Source: Gemmatimonadetes bacterium SCN 70-22 (GTDB taxonomy: Bacteria > Gemmatimonadota > Gemmatimonadetes > Gemmatimonadales > Gemmatimonadaceae). From it: a stretch of DNA of 64,000 nucleotides. Both the position numbers and the translations under genes were made by a program. Under the pieces are notes generated by a model that saw only the letters and a program-made list of their open reading frames with translations, was not told the DNA's origin and did no database searches. The first letter of the stretch is position 1, and the number at the start of each line of letters is the position of its first letter. The stretch spans positions 1 through 64,000 of the forward strand of contig MEDZ01000014.1 in assembly GCA_001724275.1 (NCBI GenBank). Reading direction: 5' to 3'. Positions 20,989-24,906 of this stretch are shown here, piece after piece.

Positions 20989-21063
20989 GGTCCGCGCAAT
21001 CTTGGGGTGGGACTCGCGCGACGCAAGGGGGCACGCGACATAACCCTTGACGCCGTCCGCCGG

Positions 21064-21069
21064 TATAAT
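21064..21069 (+). promoter_or_regulatory. Consensus -10 box TATAAT upstream of the HEGMH protein gene
   Basis: A perfect TATAAT, rare in this GC-rich window, lies 27 bases before ATG 21097. The nearest TTGACG (21047-21052) is only 11 bases upstream, too close for a normal -35 element. Only the -10 assignment is offered. Confidence 0.4.
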
Positions 21070-21096
21070 GGGACAGCCCCGCAACGGAGTCGACAC

Positions 21097-21657
21097 ATGG
21101 CCGCGCCTCCCCCGGTCCCGGAGTTCTACCTCGTTCGCGGCTTCGAGGTCGTGGTCGAGAACAGCCGTCCCGACATCGTCACCGCCGACGTCGTCGCTCG
21201 CCTCGACGAGGCGCTGGGCCTCATCGAGCGCCACCAGCCCTGGCGGCTTCGCCACCTGCGCCGCGACCTGCGCCACTTCTGGGTCGTGCGCTATCCCTGC
21301 CGCGGCGCCTACCTGCCCGACCAGCGCGCCTGCATGACGGAACTCACCTTCCTCAACCGCCGCGACATCACCGCCGCCACCGTGGCGTCGTCGATCATCC
21401 ACGAGGGCATGCACGCGCGGGTGGACCGGATGGGCGTGCAGCGCGAGGGGCGCGACCGGGCGCGCGAGGAGCGGCTCTGCCGACGCGCCGAGCTCGAGTT
21501 CGGCCGCTCGCTCCCGGAGGCGTTGGGAGCCCCGGTCGTGGAACGCGCCCTGGCGTCGTTGCAGCTGGCGGATCCGGACGTCGCCCCCGACATCGACTGG
21601 CGCCTGGCGATGCAGCGACAGGCCGAAGTGGATCGGCAGGCGCTCGGCGAGCGATAG
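21097..21657 (+). CDS. Hypothetical protein with HEGMH zinc-protease-like motif
   Basis: A 186-residue protein from ATG 21097, with GGAG eight to nine bases upstream. It has no signal peptide or membrane helix. Its centre carries SIIHEGMHARVDRMG, an HExxH-type motif set in a helix, preceded by a TELTFLNRRDI segment. The motif suggests a small zinc-dependent peptidase or a protein derived from one. No third metal ligand can be named with certainty, though a Glu-rich stretch (REERLCRRAELEF) follows about 20 residues on. The gene is divergent from the aromatic operon leader. Function unknown. Confidence 0.75.
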   Translation: MAAPPPVPEFYLVRGFEVVVENSRPDIVTADVVARLDEALGLIERHQPWRLRHLRRDLRHFWVVRYPCRGAYLPDQRACMTELTFLNRRDITAATVASSIIHEGMHARVDRMGVQREGRDRAREERLCRRAELEFGRSLPEALGAPVVERALASLQLADPDVAPDIDWRLAMQRQAEVDRQALGER

Positions 21658-22141: not shown

Positions 22142-23317
22142 TCACCGACGCGCCACCGGCTCGAGCCGAACGATCGGGGTCGGCTTCCCCTCGCGGTCCT
22201 CGATCGCCAGGTAGATGTAGCCGTCGGGCCCTTGGCGCACGTCGCGCACGCGGCCGATCCCGCGCACCAGCTGTTCGGCCATCTCTGCCTTCTGTCCGGC
22301 CAGCGTAAAGCGAGTCACCCGTTCACCCGACAGCCCGCCGGCGAAGAGGTTCCCCCTCCATCCGGGGAACTTGTCGCCGGTGTAGTACATCAGCCCGGAC
22401 ACCCCGATCGACGGTACCCAGACCTGCACCGGCTGCTCCATCCCCTCACGCGCCGTGCCGGCATGGATGGCGGCGCCGGTGCGGTAGTTCACGCCAAACC
22501 CGATGACCGGCCACCCGTAGTTGGCCCCCTTCTTGATCAGGTTCAGTTCGTCCCCGCCCTGCGGGCCATGTTCCGTCTCCCACACGTCGCCCGTCTCGGG
22601 GTGCACCACGAGCCCCTGCATGTTGCGATGCCCGTAGCTCCAGATCTCGGGCAATGCCCCCTCGCGCCCCACGAACGGGTTGTCGCTGGGCACGCGTCCG
22701 TCGTCGTGCAGGCGCAACGTCTTGCCGTGATGGTTGGAGAGGTCCTGGGCAGGGTGCGCCTCCAGGTTCCCCGCCGGCGGCACCATGCGGTCGCCGACCG
22801 TCACGAACAGGTACCCCTGACGGTCGAAGGCCAGGCGAGAGCCGAAATGGCCGATCGTCCCGCGTGTCTTCGCGACGAAGATGTCGGCCACCCCCGTTAG
22901 GCGATCGTTCTCGAGACGCCCCCGGGCAATGGCCGTCGTCGTCAGGCCGCTGTCCCCGGCCGGCTTCGAGTACGTCAGGTAGACCAGCCGGTTGCTCGCG
23001 AAGCCCGGGTGGGGCACGACGTCGAGCAGTCCGCCCTGCCCGCGAGCCGCGACCTCCGGCACCCCCGCCACCGGCGTATCGAGGAGCCTCCCGTTCCGGA
23101 CGATGCGCAGGCGCCCGGGGCGCTCGGTGACCAGCATGTCGCCCCCCGGGAGGAAGGCGACCGACCAGGGATTGACCAGCCCGTCGACGACGGTGACGAC
23201 GCGATAGTCGTGCTCGGCGGACTTGTACACCTTCCCCTGCGCCGCGGCCGGGGCGGGGAGCACCAGGGCGGGGGCCACCACGGCGAGTGCCACCAGGGCG
23301 AGTAATGGGCGAAGCAT
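22142..23317 (-). CDS. PQQ-dependent soluble aldose sugar dehydrogenase (GSDH/YliI family)
   Basis: A 391-residue exported protein: ATG 23317 is preceded by GAGGAA and followed by a signal peptide (residues 1-27, PAPAAAQG). The body is a six-bladed propeller typical of soluble aldose dehydrogenases that use pyrroloquinoline quinone, with LVNPWSVAFLPGGDMLVTER, EIWSYGHRNMQGL (the catalytic-His region) and ETEHGPQGGDELN. It would oxidise sugars in the periplasm, passing electrons to an unknown acceptor. No PQQ biosynthesis gene is in the window. It is followed on the other side of a short spacer by the alpha/beta-hydrolase gene on the same strand. Confidence 0.92.
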   Translation of the reverse strand: MLRPLLALVALAVVAPALVLPAPAAAQGKVYKSAEHDYRVVTVVDGLVNPWSVAFLPGGDMLVTERPGRLRIVRNGRLLDTPVAGVPEVAARGQGGLLDVVPHPGFASNRLVYLTYSKPAGDSGLTTTAIARGRLENDRLTGVADIFVAKTRGTIGHFGSRLAFDRQGYLFVTVGDRMVPPAGNLEAHPAQDLSNHHGKTLRLHDDGRVPSDNPFVGREGALPEIWSYGHRNMQGLVVHPETGDVWETEHGPQGGDELNLIKKGANYGWPVIGFGVNYRTGAAIHAGTAREGMEQPVQVWVPSIGVSGLMYYTGDKFPGWRGNLFAGGLSGERVTRFTLAGQKAEMAEQLVRGIGRVRDVRQGPDGYIYLAIEDREGKPTPIVRLEPVARR

Positions 23318-23390
23318 TGCGATGTTCCTCGGAGATTGTCTCCGGGGAAAGATGGCGCGTGGCGTGAGGGGAGCCAAGGGTACGGCCCGC

Positions 23391-24701
23391 CTAACGCGCC
23401 GAGTCGCCGGCCGCGCGGCGATGAGTAGGATCGTAGACTTCGAGCGGAATCGATTCGCCGCGCAGGTACGCGCGGATGACGTCGGCGTACATCCCCGGTT
23501 GCTCGAGCCAGATGAAGTGCCCGGCGGCAGGGATGGCGACGTAGCGCGCCCCCGGCAGGACCTTCAGGTATTCGGCGGACACGGGCCAGTCGGTATAGTC
23601 GCACGTCCCCCGGATGATCAGCGCCTCGGTGGTGACCTTTCCCAGCGCGGGACGCGGGTCCGGGTGGGTGACGGCGTCGGCCAGCGTGTAACTGTTGACG
23701 AAGAAGCCAAGCCCCGCGGGATGGGGGATCCCGTGCCCCGGGTCGCTGTAGCATGTGTAGTTCGGCTGCCCCAGCCTTATCGCCTCCTCGGTGGTGCGCG
23801 TCCACCACTGGTCAGCCTCCCAGTCGGCGATAAACGTGTGCGCCGAGCGCGGGCTGAAGTCGGCCATCATGCGCCCGATCACCAGGCGCACCGGCGGTCG
23901 CTGCAGCGCCGCCAGCGCCGACGCCTGCACGTCCGTCATCCTGGCGCGCGCGGCCGGGTTGATCAGCTCGGGCCACGCCGGGGCCCACAGCGCCCCGGGC
24001 GACTCGAGGATGAGCTTCTCCACACGATCCGGATGCTGCAGCAGATAGTTTGTGGCGAGCGTCGCCCCCCACCCCGTCCCGGCCAGGATCATCCGCGGGA
24101 CGTTGAGCGTGCCGCGGATCGCCTCGAGATCCTCGACGTGGCGCGCCACGGTATACGGCGCCTCGCGCGTCAGGTCGAGCCGTCCCGACAGCCCGGCCCC
24201 CAGCTGGTCGTAGTAGTACACGTCGTACCCGTCGTCGCCGAGGAAGTCCAGCGGACGCTTCCCCAAGGCGTGGTAGAAGGGGAGCGCCGGCATCCCGGGC
24301 CCGTCGTGCAGCACCACGACGGGCACCGGACGCGCCACCCCCTTCGCGCGCGACACCTCGTAGGCGATGCGCGAGCCGTTGGCGAGCGTCCAGTACTGCG
24401 TCTCGCCCGTTGGTTCGGGGGCCACGAGGGTGCGCTGCGGCGCGCGCCCTACCAGGAGCTGCGCGGCGATGGCGTACACCGCCGTCCCTCCCAGCAGCCA
24501 CCGCAGCGTGCTCGCACGAGGCGCCGAAACCGTGCGCCCGACCCACGACAGCAGGGCATACCCCGCGAGCATGAACGCCGCCAGCGCCAGCGCGGCGAGT
24601 GGCCAGAAGCCCAGCGGGAATCGGGCGAGCATCACGAAGGCCGCGACCGCGACGAGGAGGGCGCCGATCAAGGCACCGAGGCGCGCCAGCACAATTCTCA
24701 C
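23391..24701 (-). CDS. Membrane-anchored alpha/beta-hydrolase-fold protein lacking the nucleophile Ser
   Basis: A 436-residue protein from GTG 24701, with GGAG eight bases upstream. Residues about 1-85 contain three hydrophobic helices; the rest is an alpha/beta-hydrolase domain closest to the proline iminopeptidase group, with an HDGPG oxyanion motif (HGGPG in active enzymes), Asp about 368 in GTCDYTDW and His about 395 in AAGHFIW. The nucleophile elbow, normally GxSxG, reads GTGWG, so Gly about 210 replaces the catalytic serine. The codon is clearly GGG. Unless another residue substitutes, peptidase activity is lost. The domain may act as a binding or regulatory protein at the membrane. Confidence 0.85.
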   Translation of the reverse strand: MRIVLARLGALIGALLVAVAAFVMLARFPLGFWPLAALALAAFMLAGYALLSWVGRTVSAPRASTLRWLLGGTAVYAIAAQLLVGRAPQRTLVAPEPTGETQYWTLANGSRIAYEVSRAKGVARPVPVVVLHDGPGMPALPFYHALGKRPLDFLGDDGYDVYYYDQLGAGLSGRLDLTREAPYTVARHVEDLEAIRGTLNVPRMILAGTGWGATLATNYLLQHPDRVEKLILESPGALWAPAWPELINPAARARMTDVQASALAALQRPPVRLVIGRMMADFSPRSAHTFIADWEADQWWTRTTEEAIRLGQPNYTCYSDPGHGIPHPAGLGFFVNSYTLADAVTHPDPRPALGKVTTEALIIRGTCDYTDWPVSAEYLKVLPGARYVAIPAAGHFIWLEQPGMYADVIRAYLRGESIPLEVYDPTHRRAAGDSAR

Positions 24702-24906
24702 GTGGGACTCCTGGGCGGGAGCATGGGTCGGCGGAAGGGCCGTGGTGGCCACTACGCTCGGCGCCCACACGCGCCCCGTCAATGCCGCCGAAATCACCGA
24801 GTCCGCCTACCGGATCCCGCGCCCGACATGCGCGCCCTCTGGCGGATGGGGGCTCGCGGCTCACATTCCCCCGATCACACGTCCCCTCACCGCCGCCATC
24901 GCTCGC

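Follow-up and report, generated by a model that had tools for sequence, protein, structure and literature searches.

A membrane-anchored relative of proline iminopeptidases with glycine fixed at the nucleophile elbow in Gemmatimonadota

Introduction

What is the role of an alpha/beta-hydrolase that carries glycine in place of its nucleophilic serine? This question is raised by a gene of Gemmatimonadetes bacterium SCN 70-22, located in the window, i.e. the stretch of 64,000 nucleotides of contig MEDZ01000014.1 that was analysed. Automatic annotation would name its product a hydrolase or a proline iminopeptidase, and very probably it is neither. In the original prediction the protein was regarded as a maintained pseudo-enzyme, perhaps a membrane sensor. 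Here the family, which we call pseudo-hydrolase, is described on the basis of its orthologues, of more distant homologues with serine, and of known systems.

Results

The gene and the fold of its product

The gene is intact and encodes 436 amino acids, as read from the sequence.

23391 to 24701, minus strand: coding sequence of the pseudo-hydrolase, 436 aa, GTG start (sequence, PF00561 match and orthologue alignment)
24707 to 24712, minus strand: Shine-Dalgarno-like AGGAGT, 5 bases from the GTG (read in the sequence)

An intact gene with a ribosome binding site had been predicted; the coding sequence, the GTG and the AGGAGT element are indeed all present. An alternative in-frame GTG further upstream would yield 468 amino acids, but the 436-aa start was preferred because it fits most orthologue lengths. 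A promoter and terminator scan found nothing.

The Pfam model Abhydrolase_1 (PF00561) matches residues 127-401 with an E-value of 8.8e-19 and 68.6 bits (cut-off 25.8), and the predicted core (residues 97-417) superposes on alpha/beta-hydrolase PDB chains, iminopeptidases included, with Z scores of 20-23. By match and fold the protein thus belongs to the alpha/beta-hydrolase superfamily. All NCBIfam matches are far below cut-off. The nearest named model is the proline-iminopeptidase family, with 88.5 bits for TIGR01250 (cut-off 167.65) and 51.6 for TIGR01249 (cut-off 259.75). Measured against proline iminopeptidases (S33), the protein has the Asp and His of the triad and lacks both the catalytic Ser and a score above the family cut-offs. 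In the PDB the closest sequences are those of 2yys, the top phmmer match, and of 3nwo.

Membrane anchor and topology

24447 to 24698, minus strand: three membrane helices, residues 2-25, 32-58 and 62-85 (AlphaFold2 secondary structure and hydropathy)

The hydropathy peaks coincide with the helices of the AlphaFold2 model, in agreement with the three membrane helices proposed earlier. In most orthologues the loop between helix 2 and helix 3 is rich in Arg in the alignment. By the positive-inside rule this loop would therefore be cytoplasmic, and the alpha/beta-hydrolase domain probably faces the periplasm.

Glycine at the nucleophile elbow is fixed and old

24066 to 24080, minus strand: nucleophile elbow GTGWG, residues 208-212, with Gly210 at the Ser position (sequence, orthologues and codons)

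As had been proposed, residues 208-212 read GTGWG instead of GxSxG, with Gly210 (codon GGG in the window gene) at the nucleophile position. A search of 179 genomes of the host's taxonomic family yielded 7 clear orthologues of patchy distribution, set apart by a score gap (E-values down to 2.6e-90, next match 1.1e-19). When 395 genomes of the phylum were searched with a profile, one extra orthologue (G349) was found. A pattern-based scan of a collection described as comprising 84,980 species, which requires a short motif match and could miss distant members, gave 6 loci, titled Gemmatimonadetes, Gemmatimonas or Gemmatimonadaceae. The merged set comprises 7 distinct copies spanning the elbow and one C-terminal fragment without it.

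Close homologues had been named as the place to check whether the Gly is fixed. All 7 elbow-spanning orthologues, all from Gemmatimonadota, carry Gly at the nucleophile position and none has Ser, so that the Ser, Asp or Cys expected at the elbow of an active hydrolase is absent throughout. The elbow reads GTGWG in five copies, GEGWG in one and GHGWG in one, and the Gly is encoded by three synonymous codons (GGG in three copies, GGC in three, GGA in one). Comparison with the closest relative, L047, gives a dN/dS of 0.10 (154 codons), and that of L045 with L046 gives 0.16 (415 codons); for the remaining orthologue pairs the ratio is 0.33-0.46, with high dS. The constant Gly, the variety of synonymous codons and the low dN/dS show that the Gly is an old, maintained state. 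Residue 209 was considered as an alternative nucleophile and rejected, since it varies (Thr in five copies, Glu in one, His in one). No conserved substitute of the kind that would have overturned the original prediction is thus found at the elbow.

Within the host genome, 21 proteins match PF00561, and their nucleophile is Ser in 18, Asp in 2 and Gly in the pseudo-hydrolase alone. Among 66 non-redundant homologous rows, taken from the fetched loci after exclusion of duplicates and of rows outside 230-420 aa, 57 have Ser, 8 Gly and one Asp. Seven of the Gly rows are members of the family and the eighth is locus L022 (L078:9021-10073, minus strand; genome G003). This lipoprotein-like relative of iminopeptidases carries HDGPG and GQGWG.

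Remaining active-site residues

24294 to 24308, minus strand: HDGPG oxyanion loop, residues 132-136, with Asp133 for the usual first Gly (sequence and orthologues)
23598 to 23603, minus strand: Cys367 and triad Asp368 (alignments)
23517 to 23519, minus strand: triad His395 (alignments)

The Asp and His of the triad and the HDGPG motif had been reported as kept, and all three are present: Asp368 sits in GTCDY, His395 in AAGHF, and HDGPG occupies residues 132-136. None of the 8 copies departs from Asp368 or His395, and the 7 copies that span the elbow all have the oxyanion-loop Gly and Trp211; about 30% of all columns of the family alignment are invariant. In the 1xqv alignment residues 122-243 correspond to 25-141, and the title reads 'inactive F1-mutant G37A'; if there is no gap, Gly134 would pair with Gly37 of F1. 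The first Gly of HGGPG is replaced by Asp in 6 of 7 orthologues. An essential role of Asp133 in the site was rejected, since L044 has HGGPG together with the Gly elbow.

The cysteine pair and the cap

23751 to 23753, minus strand: Cys317, invariant and family-specific, proposed partner of Cys367 (alignments; bond predicted)
23799 to 23825, minus strand: cap motif DWEADQWWT, residues 293-301, nearly invariant (family alignment)

Each of the 8 copies has exactly two Cys residues in its soluble domain. Both are invariant, and one of them immediately precedes the triad Asp; the Ser homologues listed lack Cys at both columns. The copy of G001 has one additional Cys, located in the first helix. For a domain that probably faces the periplasm, such an invariant pair points to a disulfide, and a Cys317-Cys367 bond probably links the cap to the acid loop. 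In the cap, the 7 full copies all read WExDQWWT and differ only at x, and the motif aligned to no conserved motif of the Ser homologues in the 66-row alignment. Iminopeptidases have a 'WE' motif, and glutamates of their cap bind the substrate amine. Glu295 is invariant in the family and might be an amine anchor of this type, but the cap does not align with that of the Ser homologues. Only the core of the AlphaFold2 model (mean pLDDT 67.8) can be used; in the cap the model is poor, with pLDDT of 32-49 per block for residues 241-340.

Paired changes of elbow and oxyanion loop

HDGPG is found in none of the 57 Ser rows and in 7 of the 8 Gly rows of the 66-row set, the exception being L044. In the clan of L022, which is one sequence on a long branch, all 29 other loci have HGGPG with Ser. 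A tree of 56 of the 66 rows, built without both motifs, needs two origins of the Gly elbow, and a single origin of all Gly rows is rejected (p-AU 0.000135). Two changes to Gly are likewise obtained with 59 rows. Seven remote, fragmentary or frame-shifted rows were omitted from the 59-row tree and three more long branches from the 56-row tree. A coupling of Ser loss with the gain of HDGPG is thus suggestive and not proven, because there are only about two independent events.

A pattern search in the 395 genomes gave mostly chance matches, out of frame or in non-hydrolases. It also gave 5 hydrolase-like frames with HDGPG...GxxWG, all with Gly and all of the pseudo-hydrolase family, and one hydrolase-like frame with HGGPG and Gly (L152, G349). 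A pattern that requires Trp after the nucleophile gave, in these genomes, no hydrolase-like frame in which HDGPG is combined with Ser at matching spacing. Such searches are not exhaustive, as L022 itself was unmatched.

Gene neighbourhood

Apart from the closest relative L047, the orthologue loci have no neighbour in common, and a conserved gene neighbourhood was therefore rejected. The 12 neighbouring genes belong to unrelated Pfam families or have no match, and at other loci the flanks include cytochrome oxidase, phosphoesterase, GHMP kinase, Uma2 and rhodanese genes. With flanks unrelated outside L047, the sequence points to no partner. Neighbouring genes were taken from a rough home-made caller trained on the window, which missed the pseudo-hydrolase gene itself and chose an overlapping frame on the opposite strand.

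Directly downstream lies a glucose/sorbosone dehydrogenase gene (22142-23377, minus strand), a same-strand adjacency kept in L047 only; the gap is 13 or 73 bases, depending on the dehydrogenase start chosen. The window further contains a frame without Pfam match (21007-21657, plus strand; 88% over 150 residues in L047) and a gene for a 1,221-aa, possibly secreted protein with a right-handed beta-helix region (PF13229; 26709-30374, plus strand).

Discussion

We favour, with a probability of about 55%, a maintained pseudo-hydrolase of proline-iminopeptidase ancestry that faces the periplasm and holds a ligand or a membrane partner. The three helices would anchor the protein in the inner membrane and place the hydrolase domain in the periplasm, with a pocket presumably retained around oxyanion-loop Gly134, Trp211, Asp368 and His395. 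Since Gly210 has no serine side chain, an acyl-enzyme should not form there, and this site is expected to be inactive. Asp133 would bring a negative charge next to the oxyanion hole, which should make the site less favourable for an oxyanion and more so for a cationic group, e.g. a peptide N-terminus. The invariant Cys pair, one member of which adjoins Asp368, could tie the cap to the acid loop by a disulfide. A ligand or membrane partner might then be held, as inactive DPP10 modulates Kv4 channels. Such a function as binder or regulator is conceivable because DPP10 is described as regulating with Gly for Ser and with His and Asp kept (PMC4350108). In ligand-bound alpha/beta-hydrolases the residues flanking the oxyanion residue often bind the ligand, according to PMC7034887. 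Neither a ligand nor a partner was found for the pseudo-hydrolase.

The idea of a maintained pseudo-enzyme stands for the canonical serine mechanism, given Gly in all 7 orthologues, purifying selection and the lack of a conserved alternative at the elbow. Nevertheless it does not extend to all chemistry, as the Asp/His pair leaves room for catalysis without a nucleophile. The label 'sensor', proposed for peptides or acyl compounds, is unsupported, because Pfam revealed no signalling domain in the protein and no neighbour is conserved.

The strongest rival is indeed catalysis by the Asp368-His395 dyad, joined by Asp133 in most members, as general acid/base on a substrate bound at the oxyanion hole, as in cofactor-free dioxygenases, in which the serine can be dispensed with. 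The invariant dyad (8/8 copies), oxyanion Gly and Trp211 (7/7) fit this reading as well as the pseudo-hydrolase reading. Chemistry may still be selected, because there has been no drift at Asp368, at His395 or at the oxyanion Gly, unlike in the triad of NDRG3 as described in PMC7022630. HOD-type enzymes, some with a natural Ala elbow, are reported to deprotonate their substrate via His-Asp (PMC10548524). However, no HOD-type or other non-hydrolytic family matched at family cut-off, the loci share no metabolic neighbour gene, and with about 30% of columns invariant two conserved residues are weak evidence, so that we regard a nucleophile-free enzyme as possible and rather doubtful. It is less probable still, and unlikely altogether, that the protein still hydrolyses its substrate, either through a nucleophile that has moved to Asp133 or to a cysteine, or through water activated by the His. 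Asp133 accompanies the Ser loss in two separate lineages and Gly is present in 5 of 5 genuine HDGPG...GxxWG frames from the 395 genomes, though all of one family. Against this, Gly occurs together with HGGPG in L044, position 209 is T, E or H, and Cys367 beside the acid is better explained by a disulfide. Gene decay or a fault in the assembly would fit the patchy occurrence in 7 of 179 genomes, but the gene is intact in 7 assemblies with Gly in each, the codons differ and dN/dS is 0.10-0.16 for two pairs; we give this explanation almost no weight.

More speculatively, and with a low probability in our judgement, the active site may have been rewired recurrently. Loss of the elbow Ser together with gain of the HDGPG Asp would create an Asp133-His395-Asp368 site for nucleophile-free chemistry or for binding of a cationic ligand. 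Within one bacterial phylum this would have happened at least twice; one of the two lineages is the membrane-anchored family, which also acquired a Cys pair next to the catalytic acid that might serve as a redox switch. If the coupling of Ser-to-Gly and Gly-to-Asp is true, the two lineages are a natural experiment in the repurposing of a hydrolase pocket.

Comparison with known systems

Proline iminopeptidases (MEROPS S33; 3nwo, 1mtz/F1, 1qtr) are among the best relatives in sequence and structure, with Asp, His, the HxGPG loop and the GxxWG elbow in register. The pseudo-hydrolase differs from them by Gly for Ser, HDGPG for HGGPG, three extra membrane helices and an unalignable cap. The 'proline iminopeptidase-related protein' 2yys, from Thermus, is an existing solved structure with Gly at the Ser position: in the alignment its elbow AHGFG also has Gly, and Asp and His are kept. 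In contrast to the pseudo-hydrolase it retains HGGPG. It is 286 aa long and its alignment starts at residue 27, so that it has no comparable three-helix anchor. A literature search found no paper describing 2yys.

Human DPP10 (DPPY) is likewise a membrane-anchored alpha/beta-hydrolase with Gly for Ser (GKGYGG) and with His and Asp retained, reported as inactive (PMC4350108). However, it is a single-pass member of a different family, the prolyl oligopeptidases, and has a beta-propeller, of which there is no sign in the pseudo-hydrolase, where only abhydrolase Pfam models match. The Ndr model, presumably the Pfam model of the NDRG family, is absent from the 3 families that match the pseudo-hydrolase at E ≤ 0.001. 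NDRG proteins share the non-enzymatic alpha/beta-hydrolase fold proposed here, but according to PMC7022630 none of the three triad residues is left in NDRG3, whereas Asp and His are kept in the pseudo-hydrolase. In HOD-type cofactor-free dioxygenases a His-Asp dyad serves as general base on an N-heteroaromatic substrate; in the pseudo-hydrolase the dyad is present, and a reaction of this type would be conceivable. Other families thought to be inactive, one with membrane helices, are listed in a survey of alpha/beta-hydrolases (PMC11878206).

Our literature searches found no paper on this family or on a similar bacterial case, which is no proof of absence. A Gly elbow as such is already known from DPP10 and 2yys. 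New are the family itself, the fixed Gly combined with a membrane anchor and paired Cys residues, and the parallel HDGPG change, which together provide a conserved bacterial addition to the documented alpha/beta-hydrolase pseudoenzymes.
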